From the NCBI GenBank assembly GCA_021463195.1, contig JAJTXZ010000002.1, positions 62,001 through 126,000 of the forward strand: a stretch of DNA of 64,000 nt, written 5' to 3'. The notes below the pieces were generated by a model. That model ran no database searches, was not told the origin of the DNA, and was given only the letters and a program-made list of their open reading frames with translations. A program made the translations under genes and the position numbers. Of this stretch, positions 21,873 to 52,090 are shown one piece after another. This DNA comes from Anaerolineae bacterium (GTDB lineage Bacteria > Chloroflexota > Anaerolineae > UBA4142 > SHND01). Numbering within the stretch: position 1 is the first letter of the stretch; each line of letters begins with the position of its first letter.

Positions 21873-21967
21873 TCTTTCTAACTCGGCTTCCATGATGTAC
21901 ACATTGCACAAAGGAGAATGGCGCGAAATCAGATAATTCGCATGATGCAAGCATTTGTGTAATCTGT

Positions 21968-21973
21968 TACAAT
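21968..21973 (+). promoter_or_regulatory. candidate -10 element of the ilv-leu transcript
   Basis: TACAAT at 21968-21973 with only a weak -35 (ATGCAA, 21945-21950). It would start RNA near 21980, at or 2 nt before the leader-peptide ATG, which has no ribosome site. Confidence 0.4.
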
Positions 21974-21981
21974 CTCTTCTA

Positions 21982-22101
21982 ATGTTATCGCTCGGCATTA
22001 TTATCGTCGTCAGCATTATTAGCCTTGTTGAGGTCATCGTCCTTAGCAACAGGCGTAATATGGTTTTGGCGAACATCGGGAACCGCCCCCGACGACGATA
22101 A
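21982..22101 (+). CDS. branched-chain amino acid attenuator leader peptide
   Basis: A 39-codon frame, ATG 21982 to TAA 22101. Codons 2-21 read L-S-L-G-I-I-I-V-V-S-I-I-S-L-V-E-V-I-V-L: 15 of the first 21 residues are Leu, Ile or Val, the three products of the genes downstream. The frame ends in Arg-Pro-Arg-Arg-Arg. It is followed 24 nt later by a Rho-independent terminator. No ribosome site precedes the ATG; with the candidate -10 just upstream the message may be leaderless. The sequence matches the logic of ilv leader peptides: ribosome stalling at scarce Ile/Val/Leu codons would favour an antiterminator. A small membrane peptide is the alternative, made unlikely by position. Confidence 0.8.
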   Translation: MLSLGIIIVVSIISLVEVIVLSNRRNMVLANIGNRPRRR

Positions 22102-22125
22102 GCGAGCGAACGACGCAGCGAATCG

Positions 22126-22157
22126 AACCCGCCTGAACCAACAGGCGGTTTTTTTTT
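22126..22157 (+). terminator. attenuator terminator of the ilv-leu cluster
   Basis: CCGCCTG (22129-22135), loop AACCAA, CAGGCGG (22142-22148), then nine T. The hexamer CAGGCG also occurs inside the leader peptide gene (22050-22055), so it can pair with the 5' arm (22130-22135) instead and block the terminator. A second upstream pairing, TCGTCGTC (21994-22001) with GACGACGA (22091-22098), is also possible. Confidence 0.85.
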
Positions 22158-22221
22158 GTTTTGCGGCGGCAAACGTTGACAGCAGCGGCGAATTTTCAAA
22201 TTCAGCAGCCCTTCAATGTCG

Positions 22222-22248
22222 AAGGTAGGCGATTATGCCTACCTTTTT
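22222..22248 (+). terminator. second terminator-like hairpin in the ilv leader
   Basis: AAGGTAGGC (22222-22230), six-base loop, GCCTACCTT (22237-22245) and a further T run. It lies between the first terminator and the small ORF at 22274; it may be a second attenuation point or may merely insulate that ORF. Confidence 0.65.
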
Positions 22249-22273
22249 GTTTTGCTCCAAAAGGAGGAGCGCA

Positions 22274-22504
22274 ATGTTTCATTCACGTTATTCAGAGATG
22301 GAAATGGACCAATGGCAGGATGCGTGCGCGGAATCGGCTCGCGCCAAGCATGACGCGACGCGTCATCATGGCGCGCGCGCGGCGATGGCAAAGGGTCAAG
22401 CGGACAAAAATATGACGCGCAGCGCCGCTGCCGCAATGCCGACGGAATTGCCCCAGCACGACGATTGGGCGAGCGAATGTTTGTTTGACTGTTACAACGG
22501 TTGA
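22274..22504 (+). CDS. small hypothetical protein in the ilv leader region
   Basis: 76 residues. An excellent ribosome site AAAGGAGGA sits 6-7 nt ahead of ATG 22274, better than that of most genes here. The sequence is hydrophilic, rich in Ala, His, Met and Asp (MEMDQWQDACAESARAKHDA, ATRHHGARAAMAKGQADKN) and ends DDWASECLFDCYNG with two Cys. No family recognised. It lies between the attenuator and ilvB, so it is made only when attenuation is relieved. It could be a regulatory or metal-binding peptide. Confidence 0.55.
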   Translation: MFHSRYSEMEMDQWQDACAESARAKHDATRHHGARAAMAKGQADKNMTRSAAAAMPTELPQHDDWASECLFDCYNG

Positions 22505-22525
22505 CGGACGTTCGGTCGCCCTTTA

Positions 22526-22612
22526 TTTTCGATTTATGATTTGTGATTTCTGATTTGCGAACGCACCGCATAAAAATCATAAATCGAAAATCCGAAATCA
22601 TAAATTCGAAAC
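22526..22612. repeat. self-complementary quasi-repeat spacer 1 (before ilvB)
   Basis: Built on the word GATTT(A/G)TGATTT. TTTTCGATTTATGATTT (22526-22542) is a perfect 17-bp match to AAATCATAAATCGAAAA (22574-22590), with further weaker copies on both arms. It forms a long hairpin 30 bp before ilvB. Confidence 0.85.
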
Positions 22613-22622
22613 GGAGTTACTC

Positions 22623-24326
22623 ATGCCCAAATTAGCAGGCGCGCAGATTTTGTGGGAATGTTTGGTCCGCGAAGGCGTGGACACGGTGTTTGGTTATCCG
22701 GGCGGCGCGATTTTGCCGTCGTACGACGCGATGCTGCAATATCCAATTCATCATGTGCTGGTGCGGCACGAGCAGGGCGCGTCGCACATGGCGGATGGTT
22801 ACGCGCGCGCGTCGGGACGCGTCGGCGTTTGCGTCGGCACGAGCGGACCTGCCGCGACGAATATGGTCACGGGGCTCGCGACAGCGATGATGGATTCTAT
22901 TCCAGTGGTCGCCATCACCGGCCAAGTCGGCACCAAAGTGATTGGCAGCGACGCGTTTCAGGAGACGGATGTGACAGGCGTTACGCTGCCGGTCACAAAG
23001 CATAATTATCTCGTGACACACGTTGAAGATTTGGCGGAAACGATTCGCGAGGCGTTTTATATCGCGCGGCACGGGCGCCCGGGCCCCGTGCTGATTGACA
23101 TTCCGAAAGATGTGCAGTTGGCGCAAACGGAATTTGAATATCCGACGCATCCGATTCATTTGCCGAACGAACGCTTGCTCGAAAAATACGTGCCGCAAGA
23201 ATATTTTGCGCGCGCGGCGGAAATGATCGCGGCGGCGGAACGTCCGGTGATTCTCGCGGGACATGGCATTTTGTTGAGCGGCGCGATGGACGAGGTGATG
23301 GAGTTTGCGGAAAAGACCAATACGCCGATCGCGCTGACGCTGCTCGGCATCGGCGGTTTTCCCGCGGAGCATCCGTTGTGTCTTGGCATGATGGGGATGC
23401 ACGGCGGCGTGTATGTGAACGAAGCGATTCAAAATGCGGACCTGCTGCTGGCGATGGGAATGCGTTTTGACGACCGCGTGACCGGCACGTTGAAAACGTA
23501 TTCGCCGCATTCCAAAAAAATCCATTTCGAAATTGACCCGACGGAAATCAACAAGAACGTCAAGGTGGATTTGCCGCTGTTGGGCGATTTAAAAGAATCG
23601 CTAACCAAGTTGAATCCACTGGTGCGCGCGAAACGCCATGACGCGTGGTGGGAACATTTGCGCCGCGCGATGCAAGCGGATCCGATTCGCGATGTGTTGG
23701 ATTGGGAATCGCCCGATGGTTTGATGAGCGAACATGTGGTTCACGATATTTGGACCGCCACGCAGGGCGACGCGATTGTCGTGACTGATGTGGGGCAGCA
23801 TCAAATGTGGGAAGTGCAATATTACTTGCACAATAAACCGCACACGCTCATCACCAGCGGCGGACTCGGCACGATGGGTTTCGCGCTGCCCGCCGCGATT
23901 GGCGCGAAATTCGCGCAGCCCGACAAAGAGGTGTGGGTGATCGCGGGCGATGGCGGTTTTCAAATGACGATGGCGGAACTCGCGACCATCGTGCAGGAAA
24001 AAATAAAAATCAATGTCGCGATTTTGAACAACGGTTATCTCGGCATGGTGCGCCAATGGCAGGAATTTTTCTATGACGCGCGCTATTGCGCGACGCCGAT
24101 TTTTTCGCCCGATTTTGCCAAAGTCGCGGACGCGTATGGCATTCCCGGTTATGTTGTGGAAAATCGCGATGACGTGATGCCGATTTTGGATGAGGTGCGC
24201 GCGTCGCCCGGACCTGCGGTGATTGAATTTCGCGTCAAGATGGAAGACGCGGTGTATCCGATGGTGCCCGCCGGCGCGAGTTTGCATGAAATGATTAAAC
24301 GGGAAAAAGTTCCGCAATCGGTTTAG
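22623..24326 (+). CDS. ilvB: acetolactate synthase, large (catalytic) subunit
   Basis: 567 residues, normal length. Residues follow the TPP-enzyme order: N-terminal GVDTVFGYPGGAILPSYDAM and VRHEQGASHMADGYARASGR (catalytic Glu in RHEQ); FAD region AMGMRFDDRVTGTL; TPP-binding GDGGFQMTMAELATIVQEKI followed by NVAILNNGYLGMVRQWQEFF. It condenses pyruvate to acetolactate, or pyruvate with 2-oxobutyrate, the first common step to Val, Leu and Ile. First enzyme gene after the attenuator; the regulatory subunit follows. Confidence 0.97.
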   Translation: MPKLAGAQILWECLVREGVDTVFGYPGGAILPSYDAMLQYPIHHVLVRHEQGASHMADGYARASGRVGVCVGTSGPAATNMVTGLATAMMDSIPVVAITGQVGTKVIGSDAFQETDVTGVTLPVTKHNYLVTHVEDLAETIREAFYIARHGRPGPVLIDIPKDVQLAQTEFEYPTHPIHLPNERLLEKYVPQEYFARAAEMIAAAERPVILAGHGILLSGAMDEVMEFAEKTNTPIALTLLGIGGFPAEHPLCLGMMGMHGGVYVNEAIQNADLLLAMGMRFDDRVTGTLKTYSPHSKKIHFEIDPTEINKNVKVDLPLLGDLKESLTKLNPLVRAKRHDAWWEHLRRAMQADPIRDVLDWESPDGLMSEHVVHDIWTATQGDAIVVTDVGQHQMWEVQYYLHNKPHTLITSGGLGTMGFALPAAIGAKFAQPDKEVWVIAGDGGFQMTMAELATIVQEKIKINVAILNNGYLGMVRQWQEFFYDARYCATPIFSPDFAKVADAYGIPGYVVENRDDVMPILDEVRASPGPAVIEFRVKMEDAVYPMVPAGASLHEMIKREKVPQSV

Positions 24327-24394: not shown

Positions 24395-24958
24395 ATGAAA
24401 CATACTCTAGTCGCTCTCGTTCAAGACAAACCCGGCGTGCTGAATCGCGTCGCATCGTTGTTTCGCCGCCGCGCGTTTAATATCGAATCGCTGACGGTCG
24501 GACACACCGATCAGCCGCATGTTTCGCGCATGACGATTGTGATTGATTCCGACAACACGAGCGCGCAGCTCGTCGAAGCGAATCTGGCGAAATTGGTGAA
24601 CGTGATTGATATTCAAGATGTCACGCAGCAAGAAACGATTTCGCGCGATTTGGCGTTGATTAAAGTGCGCGTGGACGCGGCGGGACGCGCGGAAATCGCG
24701 CAGCTCGCGGAAATTTTTCGCGCGAAAATTGTGGACGTGGCAAATGATTCCGTCGTCGTCGAAGCCACCGGCGATGAAGACAAAATTGACGGACTCGTCG
24801 AATTGCTGCGTCCCAAAGGAATTTTGGAAATGGTGCGTACCGGACGGATTGCGATGGTGCGCGGCAATCAGGCGCGCAAGAATACGAACGGTCATTACAA
24901 CGGCAATGGCAACGGCAACGGACATGTCGCGCGTGATGTGGGCGTGAGTTCGGTGTAG
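24395..24958 (+). CDS. ilvN: acetolactate synthase, small (regulatory) subunit
   Basis: 187 residues. The ACT domain starts TLVALVQDKPGVLNRVASLF followed by RRRAFNIESLTVGHT, the standard IlvN/IlvH beginning. The second half has RDLALIKVRVDAAGRAEIAQ and FRAKIVDVANDSVVVEATG. It binds valine-type effectors and tunes IlvB. The last ~30 residues (NTNGHYNGNGNGNGHV) are an Asn/Gly-rich tail not typical of the family, possibly from repeat growth in the DNA. Confidence 0.94.
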   Translation: MKHTLVALVQDKPGVLNRVASLFRRRAFNIESLTVGHTDQPHVSRMTIVIDSDNTSAQLVEANLAKLVNVIDIQDVTQQETISRDLALIKVRVDAAGRAEIAQLAEIFRAKIVDVANDSVVVEATGDEDKIDGLVELLRPKGILEMVRTGRIAMVRGNQARKNTNGHYNGNGNGNGHVARDVGVSSV

Positions 24959-25018: not shown

Positions 25019-25128
25019 AACTTTGCTTTCGTTTGGCGGCGCCTTGAAAATAAAATTACACTCGCTTACAATCTGCACGGCTCTGCTCGTCGTTGAGCTA
25101 TCACAATTCATCAAGGAGTGTAAAAATT

Positions 25129-25467
25129 ATGGATCCGTTTATCGGCGAAATTCGTCTCGTTGGTTTTACTTTTGCCCCGCAAGGTTGGGCATTTTGCAAT
25201 GGACAGCTCATGTCCATCGCGCAAAACACCGCGCTCTTTTCGCTGCTCGGCACAACGTATGGCGGCGATGGGAAAACAACTTTTGCGTTACCCGATTTGC
25301 GTGGGCGCGCGGCAGTTGGCTTTGGACAGGGCAACGGACTGCAAAATTATCAGCCGGGCGAGACGTGGAGTGTCAACGGCGGCGCGGATCAGCGCAGTGG
25401 TTCGGTGAATATGCTCGGAATGAATTACATCATCGCATTGCAAGGGATTTTCCCGCCGCGAGATTGA
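25129..25467 (+). CDS. phage tail-collar domain protein (microcystin-dependent-protein-like)
   Basis: 112 residues from ATG 25129 with CAAGGAGTG upstream. MDPFIGEIRLVGFTFAPQGW, AFCNGQLMSIAQNTALFSLL, GTTYGGDGKTTFALPDLRGR are the standard Phage_Collar/MdpB beginning. Family members are usually 150-200 residues, so this copy is short at the C-terminus (ends IIALQGIFPPRD). Such proteins form tail-fibre-like trimers. It has no link to amino acid synthesis and sits between ilvN and ilvC, presumably by insertion. Confidence 0.85.
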   Translation: MDPFIGEIRLVGFTFAPQGWAFCNGQLMSIAQNTALFSLLGTTYGGDGKTTFALPDLRGRAAVGFGQGNGLQNYQPGETWSVNGGADQRSGSVNMLGMNYIIALQGIFPPRD

Positions 25468-26556
<1,089 letters not shown>

Positions 26557-26617: not shown

Positions 26618-28240
26618 ATGTCAGATTACGTTCGCATTTTCGACACTACCCTCCGCGACGGAGAACAATCGCCCGGCGCGTCATTGACGAGCGCGGAAAA
26701 ATTGGAAATCGCGCGACAACTCGCCAAACTCGGCGTGGATATTATCGAGGCGGGATTTCCTGCCGCGTCGCCGGACGATTTGGAGGGCGTGAAACAAATC
26801 GCGCAAGAGGTCGGGAATCCTGTTGACTCGAACGCGCGCGTGCCAATCATCGCGGGGCTTGCGCGCGCGAACAAGAATGATATTGACAAAGCGTGGGAAG
26901 CGGTGAAACACGCGCGTCAGCCGCGCATCCACACCTTTCTCGCGACGAGCGATATTCATTTGAAATACAAATTGAAAATGTCGCGCGAAGAGGTTGTCGA
27001 GCGCGTGCGCGAGATGGTGAGCTATGCGAAAACGTTTTGCGATGACGTAGAATTTTCGCCCGAAGACGCGGGGCGCAGCGATCCCGAATATCTGCTTGAA
27101 GTTTTAGAAGTGGCGATTCGAGCGGGCGCGACGACGTTGAACATTCCCGATACCGTTGGTTACACGACGCCGCAAGAATTTGGCGCGCTGATTAAAGGAT
27201 TGATTGAAAATACACCGGGCGCGGAGCAAGTGGTTTGGAGCGTGCATTGTCACGACGATTTGGGACTCGCCACTGCGAACACGCTCGCGGGCGTGACGAA
27301 CGGCGCGCGCCAAGTCGAAGTGACGATGAACGGCATCGGCGAACGCGCGGGCAATACATCGCTCGAAGAAGTGGTGATGGCGATACACACGCGTCCCGCG
27401 CTGTTCGGCTTGCAGCACGGCATTGACACAACACAAATCGCGCGCGCATCGCGGATGGTTTCTAATTTCACAGGGATTCCGGTTCAGCCCAACAAAGCCA
27501 TCGTTGGCGCCAACGCGTTCGCGCACGAGGCGGGGATTCATCAAGACGGCATGTTGAAAAATAACATGACGTACGAAATTATGAAACCTGAAACGGTTGG
27601 CGTGAACGCCTCGCGTTTGGTGTTGGGCAAACATTCGGGACGGCACGCGCTCAAGGCGCGCTTTGACGAACTTGGTTACAACTTGTCCGACGACGAACTC
27701 GACCAGGCGTTCGCGCGTTTCAAAGAATTAGCGGACAAGAAAAAAGTCATCACCGACGCGGATTTGGAAGCGCTCGTTTCGGATGAAATCGCGTCATACA
27801 ACGAATTGTATTCGCTCGATGGAATGCAAGTTGTCTGCGGCACGATGGGGATGCCAACCGCGACAGTGCGCTTGCGAGACCCCGAAGGCAAATCGCACAC
27901 TGTCGCCGCGATTGGCACGGGACCCGTTGACGCGGTGTACAAAGCGATTGATGCGATTGTGAATTGTCCTATAACGCTGCTGGAATTCAACATTCACGCG
28001 GTCACGGAAGGGATTGACGCGCTCGGACAAGTGACGGTTCGCATTCAAGCCAAAGACGCGCAAACGCGGATGGACGCGCTGCGCGAAATCGCGCGCACGC
28101 GCACGTTCGGCGGTTACGGCGCGGACACGGATATCATCGTCGCGAGCGCGAAAGCGTATCTCGCCGCGCTGAATAAATTATTGATTGTGATGCAAGCGCG
28201 AGAGAATGCGATGAGCAGTGAAGTGGCGTTGATGGCGTGA
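26618..28240 (+). CDS. leuA: 2-isopropylmalate synthase
   Basis: 540 residues. [20 protein letters not shown] (HMG-CoA-lyase-like signature), [34 protein letters not shown] (metal His pair) and [15 protein letters not shown] (second signature) are intact. The C-terminal LeuA allosteric domain (about 395-520) has [20 protein letters not shown]. It condenses 2-oxoisovalerate and acetyl-CoA, the committed step to leucine, and is probably leucine-inhibited through that domain. Same strand as ilvC with only spacer 4 between. Confidence 0.96.
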
Positions 28241-28248
28241 GGAACTTT

Positions 28249-28740
28249 CTATTCGCCAGCGCGGCGGAGGGCATCGCGAAGCATTGACTCGCTCATGCGA
28301 AAACCTTTATTGCGTATCGTTGCGAGGAGTGGGGATATTGCAGTAACAAGACCTTTTTGCTTGGCCGCCAGAAGAATGCCAATGGTACCGATTATCTCAA
28401 GATTATTCTCTTTTGCGACATCACGCGCGGCACGGTCGTCGAGAATTATGCGCGAGAGGGGACTATTTAGCCCAAGGGAGATAGCTTCCAGCTCGCCTTG
28501 TCCAAGTTCAGTATAGCGACGCAAGTGTTGTGCAATCGAAATTTGCTCAATGCTGACCCAATCCATTGCCTCAAGACGCGGTATTTTCAGCCCCAATTTT
28601 TCCCCTGACCGCAACTCTGTTAGAACGCCTTGAGGCACATGCACTCGACTATACAAATCTCGCAGCAAATTTATTTGTTCGATTTGGTGCAGATAGAATA
28701 AGGGTGATGTATTCGAAATGACAAAATCATCTTGAGGCAT
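28249..28740 (-). CDS. PIN-domain toxin-like protein (DUF3368/VapC-like)
   Basis: 163 residues from ATG 28740, which overlaps the stop of the upstream partner by 14 bp. PIN features: N-terminal FVISNTSPLFYLHQI (first acidic position is Asn instead of Asp), GQGELEAISLGL (Glu) and IILDDRAARDVAKENNLEII (Asp). It is a putative Mg-dependent ribonuclease toxin; the Asn in the first motif could weaken catalysis. It lies on the minus strand between leuA and leuC, 9 bp from the leuA stop. Confidence 0.8.
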   Translation of the reverse strand: MPQDDFVISNTSPLFYLHQIEQINLLRDLYSRVHVPQGVLTELRSGEKLGLKIPRLEAMDWVSIEQISIAQHLRRYTELGQGELEAISLGLNSPLSRIILDDRAARDVAKENNLEIIGTIGILLAAKQKGLVTAISPLLATIRNKGFRMSESMLRDALRRAGE

Positions 28741-28981
28741 TAATAAAGTCCTGTTCGAGTTCTTCAGGGGTGAGGTCAAAGACAGGAACACCGTAATCGC
28801 CGACGCGCTTTAAAAAGAGGACGCGTGGAATGCCCGCTAATTCTGCTGCCCGTCCAGAAGAAATACGTCCTAACTCGAACAGCTTGGCGGCGGCTGCCAT
28901 CCGAAACTCGGATTCAAATTCGCGCGTTGACAGATGAAGTGAAGTTGCAAGCTCTTCAGGATAATCTATTGTGATTGTCAT
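28727..28981 (-). CDS. UPF0175 family protein, antitoxin-like
   Basis: 84 residues from ATG 28981. It reads TITIDYPEELATSLHLSTRE, FRMAAAAKLFELGRISSGRA and AELAGIPRVLFLKRVGDYGV, the UPF0175 pattern with a predicted helix-turn-helix (SSGRAAELAGI). UPF0175 genes are frequent partners of DUF3368 PIN genes. First gene of this two-gene module, antisense to the ilv-leu genes. Confidence 0.8.
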   Translation of the reverse strand: MTITIDYPEELATSLHLSTREFESEFRMAAAAKLFELGRISSGRAAELAGIPRVLFLKRVGDYGVPVFDLTPEELEQDFINASR

Positions 28982-29027
28982 CTTTCTGCTCCTACAAAGA
29001 GTGTAAGACAAATCAAGAGAATCGTCA

Positions 29028-30440
<1,413 letters not shown>

Positions 30441-30813: not shown

Positions 30814-30926
30814 CAGGAATAGCAGAGTTTGAGTATTACGGAAAATAAATTTGCATCAACTAGAATATGAAACTCGTATTGGCCCACCAATGCGAAATAA
30901 TCTATGAAATAAGCAATACGAACGAG

Positions 30927-31517
30927 ATGGAACCCATCAAATCATTCAAAGGCAAAACAATTCACCTCCCCAACACCGACGTTGACACCGACCAAATCAT
31001 TCCCGCGCGTTATTTGAAAGTGACGGATAAAAAGGGTTTGGGCGACGTTGTGTTTTACGATTGGCGGTATGACGCGGCCGGCAATCCGAATCCCGAATTT
31101 TTGTTGAACAAACCGCACGCGGCGGGCGCGACGATTCTTGTCGCGGGACACAATTTCGGCTGCGGCAGTTCGCGCGAACATGCGCCGTGGGCGTTACAGG
31201 GCTTTGGTTTTCAAGCCATCGTCAGCACGCAATTCGCCGATATTTTTCGCAACAATTCTTTGAAAAATGGTTTGCTGCCCATCGTCGTTGATAAAGCCAC
31301 GCACGAGCAACTGCTTGACCTCGCCGTCGAAGACCCCGATTTGCAACTTGAAGTGGATCTCGAAACGCAAACGCTCACGCTGCCCGACGGACGCCGCGTC
31401 GAATTTCCGATTGATTCATTCAGCAAAGAATGTTTGTTGAATGGCGTGGATGAGTTGGGGTATTTGATGCGGCAGAGAGATGTGATTGAGGAATACGAAA
31501 GAGCGAATGGGAAATGA
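30927..31517 (+). CDS. leuD: 3-isopropylmalate dehydratase, small subunit
   Basis: 196 residues from ATG 30927; a 20-codon upstream extension is in frame but not part of the family. IHLPNTDVDTDQIIPARYLK, ILVAGHNFGCGSSREHAPWA (swivel-domain signature) and SFSKECLLNGVDELGYLM are diagnostic. Partner of LeuC. The unrelated membrane-protein gene and about 110 bp separate it from leuC, unlike the usual direct leuC-leuD pairing. Confidence 0.95.
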   Translation: MEPIKSFKGKTIHLPNTDVDTDQIIPARYLKVTDKKGLGDVVFYDWRYDAAGNPNPEFLLNKPHAAGATILVAGHNFGCGSSREHAPWALQGFGFQAIVSTQFADIFRNNSLKNGLLPIVVDKATHEQLLDLAVEDPDLQLEVDLETQTLTLPDGRRVEFPIDSFSKECLLNGVDELGYLMRQRDVIEEYERANGK

Positions 31518-51996: not shown

Positions 51997-52090
51997 CGGG
52001 AGTAGATGGGAGTCGAACCCACCCAAGACGGTTCCACCGCCTCGCAACGGTTTTGAAGACCGCGAGACCCACCGGGACCTAGCTACCCCC
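51997..52090 (-). tRNA. selC: tRNA-Sec (anticodon TCA)
   Basis: 94 nt on the minus strand. An 8-bp acceptor stem GGGGGTAG/CTACTCCC plus discriminator G, D stem AGGTC/GGTCT, anticodon arm GCGGT-CTTCAAA-ACCGT with TCA at the centre, long variable arm GAGGCGG/CCGTCTT, and T arm GTGGG-TTCGACT-CCCAT. The 8-bp acceptor stem and large variable arm are specific to tRNA-Sec. CCA is not encoded. UGA therefore codes for selenocysteine in this organism. No selA, selB, selD or recognisable selenoprotein lies in the window. Confidence 0.95.

Follow-up and report, generated by a model that had tools for sequence, protein, structure and literature searches.

A predicted leader-peptide attenuator upstream of the ilv–leu genes of an Anaerolineae bacterium, and related leaders across the class

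In an Anaerolineae bacterium (genome G000, 4.7 Mb; nearest named relative Anaerolineae bacterium SJ719, Chloroflexota), a run of branched-chain amino acid (BCAA) genes is preceded by a short open reading frame (ORF) rich in Ile, Val, and Leu codons and by an intrinsic terminator. This raises the question of whether the two elements act together as a switch that senses the products of the genes downstream. The stretch analyzed in full (64,000 nucleotides; hereafter the window) encodes, on the + strand, the acetolactate synthase large subunit (ilvB; 22623–24326; NCBIfam TIGR00118, 6.4e-219, above cut-off), which is the first enzyme gene downstream of the leader, followed by the acetolactate synthase small subunit (ilvN; 24395–24958; NF008864/TIGR00119), ketol-acid reductoisomerase (ilvC; 25528–26556; NF004017), 2-isopropylmalate synthase (leuA; 26618–28240; NF002086/TIGR00973), and the large (leuC; 29028–30440; TIGR00170) and small (leuD; 30867–31517; TIGR00171) subunits of 3-isopropylmalate dehydratase. 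A phage tail collar domain protein is encoded between ilvN and ilvC (25093–25467, + strand), and a UPF0175/DUF3368 gene pair resembling a toxin–antitoxin module lies between leuA and leuC (28249–29257, − strand). Because this pair is on the opposite strand, control of leuCD by the leader is uncertain, and leuC and leuD may be on a separate transcript.

The leader ORF (21982–22101, + strand) has 39 codons, with Ile/Val/Leu sensor codons at positions 6–21, and its translation is MLSLGIIIVVSIISLVEVIVLSNRRNMVLANIGNRPRRR. The preliminary description of this locus had noted 15 Leu, Ile, or Val residues among the first 21, and translation of the ORF confirms this count at the N-terminal end. When the window was scanned for Ile/Val/Leu-rich ORFs (at least 8/14) followed by a terminator no more than 60 nt away, this leader was the only case on the + strand (11/14), with one weaker case on the − strand (9/14); in six dinucleotide-shuffled versions of the window there was a single match in total, and none with 11/14. 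The leader RNA has a folding z-score of −5.0 against shuffles. In same-genus genomes the ORF has a conserved C-terminal RPRRR. Codons 15 and 21 are both CTT (Leu) and do not vary within the genus, although only 13 of 186 Leu codons in the downstream genes are CTT.

Upstream of the ATG there is a candidate extended −10 element, TGTTACAAT (21965–21973, + strand; read directly from the sequence), with the hexamer TACAAT at 21968–21973; TACAAT or TAAAAT occurs at the equivalent place in most same-genus sequences. This element would place the transcription start approximately 2 nt before the leader ATG. No recognizable −35 element was found for this candidate promoter, and the window leader has no Shine–Dalgarno sequence before its ATG. 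TACAAT stands 8 nt ahead of the ATG, which suggests that in the genus of the window transcripts may be almost leaderless. A leaderless start was rejected as a class-wide property, because only 7 of 123 class leaders have a −10-like hexamer ending 4–10 nt before the ATG, compared with 39 in which such a hexamer lies 11–35 nt upstream; a Shine–Dalgarno core is present in 23 of the 123. The leader ORF is probably translated, for which the whole-codon indels described below provide indirect support.

The ORF is followed, as previously described, by an intrinsic terminator (22129–22157, + strand; CCGCCUG-AACCAA-CAGGCGG), comprising a stem (22129–22135/22142–22148) and a U-tract that extends to 22157. 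For each leader, we looked for the strongest pairing partner of the terminator 5′ arm and loop, and at most loci a single strong segment stood above shuffles, its core resembling GGUUGGG or GGCUUGGG. In the window this antiterminator 5′ strand is GGUUUUGGCG (22062–22071, + strand; codons 27–30), which forms a duplex of −15.5 kcal/mol with the terminator arm, including one U–U mismatch. Its 3′ strand (22130–22139) is itself the terminator 5′ arm and loop, so that the two helices are mutually exclusive. Across 39 aligned Anaerolineae loci, 82.6% of cells in the antiterminator helix are paired, with 34 double-change cells and a covariation of 0.240, against 0.018–0.108 when the strands are slid by one to three columns; none of 500 shuffles matched it. 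The terminator helix (93.8% paired, 44 double-change cells, covariation 0.465) likewise loses score when slid. Shuffle-based counts of this kind are inflated by the relatedness of the loci; more weight therefore rests on the slid controls and on the codons, which provide independent evidence.

An alternative for the antiterminator had been put forward in the preliminary description, in which the same attenuator would operate through pairing of CAGGCG, within the peptide ORF, with CGCCUG (22130–22135). CAGGCG does repeat part of the terminator 3′ arm, exactly at 22050–22055, and it is invariant and complementary in the seven genus and order sequences examined, with one exception (an A–C mismatch at locus L014). 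At that locus, however, the terminator has become CGCCCG with CAGGCG unchanged, yet GGUUUGGGCG still pairs. The CAGGCG helix is paired in 98% of cells within the genus and order vs. 43% in the rest of the class, and outside the order no class sequence comes within one mismatch of this pairing. In the window, CAGGCG is sequestered in a local hairpin, GCCUUGUUGAGG/CCUUAGCAACAGGC (22022–22055, + strand), that is present in minimum free energy (MFE) folds whether or not a ribosome mask is applied, and it pairs with the terminator arm at a probability of no more than 0.03 in every modeled ribosome state. We therefore reject CAGGCG and regard this version of the switch as very unlikely; the proposal of an attenuator for the branched-chain genes is otherwise strongly upheld by conservation, covariation, folding, and gene context. 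By eye, a hairpin is seen at the equivalent position in several class-level leaders.

The effect of a ribosome on the antiterminator at 22062–22071 was modeled by folding the window transcript with a 31-nt ribosome mask at each codon. Folding was stopped at 22141, ahead of the terminator 3′ arm, since a completed terminator dominates when the whole leader is folded to equilibrium; the values are equilibrium calculations that stand in for kinetics. The comparison suggested earlier, with and without a ribosome on the sensor codons, gives antiterminator probabilities of 0.88 and 0.01, respectively. The probability is 0.86–0.88 with the A site at any of codons 4–15, intermediate or low (0.02–0.55) at codons 16–22 in the version that allows pairing on both sides of the ribosome, and 0.00 at codons 24–34. 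A ribosome at the stop codon gives 0.85 if RNA flanking it on both sides may pair, and no antiterminator if folding is limited to RNA downstream of it. When the complete terminator is included in the equilibrium fold, the highest antiterminator probability is only 0.25 (codon 9), and the model therefore requires kinetic trapping before the 3′ arm exists. None of 300 synonymous recodings of the peptide matched the contrast between stalled and other states of the real leader. Among the 39 loci, the median antiterminator probability is 0.01 with no ribosome, 0.73 with a ribosome on Ile/Val/Leu codons, and 0.01 at the stop codon, and 28 of the 39 gain more than 0.3. In the model, then, a ribosome on the sensor codons favors the antiterminator and other states do not, the exception being a ribosome held at the stop codon. 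In the modeled ribosome-free MFE fold, the segment around the stop codon (GACGACGAUAAGCGAG; 22088–22105, + strand; nearly invariant in the genus) blocks the antiterminator by pairing with the region of the Ile/Val codons (GCUCG..AUCGUCGUC).

The leader shows those hallmarks of a leader-peptide attenuator that sequence and modeling can test: its ORF has many codons for the amino acids of the downstream ilvB, ilvN, ilvC, and leuA, and an intrinsic terminator with compensatory changes lies between this ORF and the first structural gene. We infer that it is very probably a classical ribosome-mediated transcription attenuator that senses the charged tRNAs of Ile, Val, and Leu. While these amino acids are plentiful, the ribosome would pass the sensor codons and cover 22062–22071 while the terminator is synthesized, allowing the terminator (22129–22157) to form. 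When they are scarce, the ribosome would stall on codons 6–15 and melt the stem that joins the Ile/Val codons to the stop region; the freed 22062–22071 would then pair with 22130–22139, and RNA polymerase would continue toward ilvB. With no ribosome, the long-range stem would persist and termination would be the default. Stalling, its cotranscriptional kinetics, and the extent of read-through into the ilv–leu cluster are predicted steps.

The terminator ends 466 nt before ilvB, and a second terminator and a 76-amino acid ORF lie in this interval. The region 22205–22250 (+ strand) contains a second conserved terminator (22221–22246), the 5′ arm of which overlaps a CCUUC/GAAGG hairpin; this competing hairpin is preceded by GGAC/GUCC in most relatives. 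The element occurs once per genome and only in the genus of the window, and it is a possible second attenuator. The 76-amino acid ORF (22274–22504, + strand) has a good ribosome-binding site and is conserved in same-genus genomes, starting with MFxSRYSEMEMxQWQ and ending with ASECLFDCYNG, although the end differs at locus L023. It has no Pfam or NCBIfam match, and outside the genus only weak chance matches were found in the class sample. Just before ilvB (22520–22610) there is an AT-rich imperfect inverted repeat (GATTTATGATTTGTGATTTC ... ATCATAAATCGAAAATCCG), with similar sequences in some same-genus genomes.

The leader and terminator are present upstream of ilvB in all five other same-genus genomes, in line with what the preliminary description anticipated for orthologous leaders. 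In these, the reading frame is preserved via whole-codon indels, and the Ile/Val/Leu run, the AGGCGUAAU..GGUUU segment, and the stop-codon region are nearly invariant. More widely, a small Ile/Val/Leu-rich ORF followed by a terminator was found at 55 of 110 ilvB loci across several phyla (the 55 include two contigs seen twice), whereas a reverse-strand control gave 2 weak cases. A separate attenuator group is formed by seven ilvB loci, mostly from Acidobacteria (L034, L036, L038, L060, L083, L096, and L097), that have a Val-rich leader with a GGCCATCATCC terminator; the two that were run against Rfam (L036 and L096) gave no match.

A covariance model of the antiterminator–terminator core (R1) finds a match in 219 of the 296 class genomes at E ≤ 0.1, a loose cut-off at which chance would give a match in approximately one genome in ten. 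The ilv leader is the one good match in G000 (2.5e-10, against 0.038 for the next). We inspected 103 matches, mostly with E below ~2e-4. A recognized ilvB, ilvC, ilvD, or ilvE follows in 59, all of which have mixed Ile/Val/Leu leaders; a further 22 also have mixed leaders, but the motifs used recognized no gene there. With the same core, Leu-rich leaders precede leuA (L123, L201, and L167) and leuS (L207 and L208), and an Ile-rich leader precedes the citramalate synthase gene cimA (L170); three representatives were compared with NCBIfam.

It is this agreement of codons with pathway that most strongly favors ribosome stalling over two other explanations of the locus. In one, the ORF would encode a small, hydrophobic membrane peptide that acts in its own right, the hairpin would be the terminator of that gene, and ilvB would have a separate promoter downstream. 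The peptide is indeed hydrophobic and then basic, a large gap with a second terminator and a small ORF precedes ilvB, and there is a weak promoter-like site (22501–22529), which is no more than chance expectation. Against this, the antiterminator–terminator pairing covaries, the switch depends on codon choice and not on the peptide alone, the peptide sequence is poorly conserved class-wide while Ile/Val/Leu content and context are retained, and codon identity tracks the downstream gene, including Leu-rich leaders before leuS; we consider a membrane peptide improbable. In the other, a riboswitch or protein-binding attenuator would sense its ligand directly and the ORF would be incidental, as the existence of conserved alternative RNA structures might suggest. 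Conservation, however, is concentrated in the antiterminator–terminator core and sensor codons, with no large aptamer, the encoded amino acid changes with the controlled gene, and there is no match to an Rfam family: the window has nothing above the gathering threshold except tRNA-Sec (the selenocysteine tRNA gene at 51998–52090, − strand, 70.6 bits), 20 related loci gave no match, with chance matches only at lax thresholds, and no T-box riboswitch covariance model matched. Direct ligand sensing is thus scarcely credible, and a ribosome-mediated attenuator is retained.

On balance, we favor, with moderate confidence, a class-wide Anaerolineae family of such attenuators with a shared core (a GGUUUGGG-type strand vs. 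CCxCCCAAxCC), in which sensor codons would be exchanged according to the controlled gene (Ile/Val/Leu for ilvB/C/D/E; Leu for leuA and leuS; Ile for cimA), and which in the genus of the window would stand in tandem with the second, genus-specific candidate attenuator. The mechanism itself is unsurprising. Ribosome-mediated attenuation of BCAA genes is documented chiefly from Proteobacteria, Actinobacteria, and some Firmicutes; with such a family, its range would take in the majority of the genomes sampled from a large class with few cultured members. Sensor codons that change among ilv, leuA, leuS, and cimA would allow targets to be annotated from sequence and offer a natural series for testing attenuator evolution. 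The switch is of a known type, and its class-wide distribution in Anaerolineae is apparently undescribed: our literature search found no description of a leader attenuator in Chloroflexota, although a prior mention is possible in Lopatovskaya et al. 2010 (cited in PMC4833913), which is reportedly a broad survey of attenuation.

In Escherichia coli, the leaders of ilvB and ilvGMEDA (ivbL and ilvL) encode peptides rich in the end-product amino acids and form mutually exclusive antiterminator and terminator structures. The window leader differs from these, in a comparison of general features rather than of sequence, in that its antiterminator strand lies in codons 27–30 of 39, well ahead of the stop codon. 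A 2010 paper (PMC2965389) stated that, until its own case in Firmicutes, systems with leader peptides were established in Proteobacteria and Actinobacteria alone. The ilvB-OMG RNA motif, found upstream of ilvB in several phyla, has been reinterpreted as possible BCAA uORF attenuators; the peptides described for it are also threonine-rich (PMC10272879), whereas the window peptide has no threonine, and the window leader stays below the gathering score of every Rfam family.

In its predicted operation the leader resembles ilvB attenuators of Actinobacteria. As in the window, Mycobacterium tuberculosis ilvB1NC (PMC13236596) and predicted actinobacterial ilvB leaders (PMC1262725) have a BCAA-rich uORF, an intrinsic terminator, and ilvB as the target, with an antiterminator favored by ribosome stalling, as proposed here. 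M. tuberculosis ilvB1NC has transcript, ribosome, and mutant data, while the Chloroflexota leader is a prediction from sequence and modeling; in Streptomyces coelicolor, codon substitutions left ilvB regulation unaltered (PMC1262725), so resemblance alone is no proof of mechanism. Unlike the ilvBNC attenuator of Corynebacterium glutamicum (ilvB-II motif uORF; PMC10272879, PMC11857589), the window leader has no Rfam match, encodes a longer peptide (39 codons), includes Ile, and pairs its antiterminator with the terminator 5′ arm and loop via a GGUUUGGG-type core, which was not encountered in the C. glutamicum accounts consulted. The two are alike in having a leader ORF with Val and Leu codons upstream of ilvB, three hairpins (anti-antiterminator, antiterminator, and terminator), and an antiterminator strand early in the leader, and a leaderless leader mRNA, discussed for C. 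glutamicum, is also possible for the window leader.
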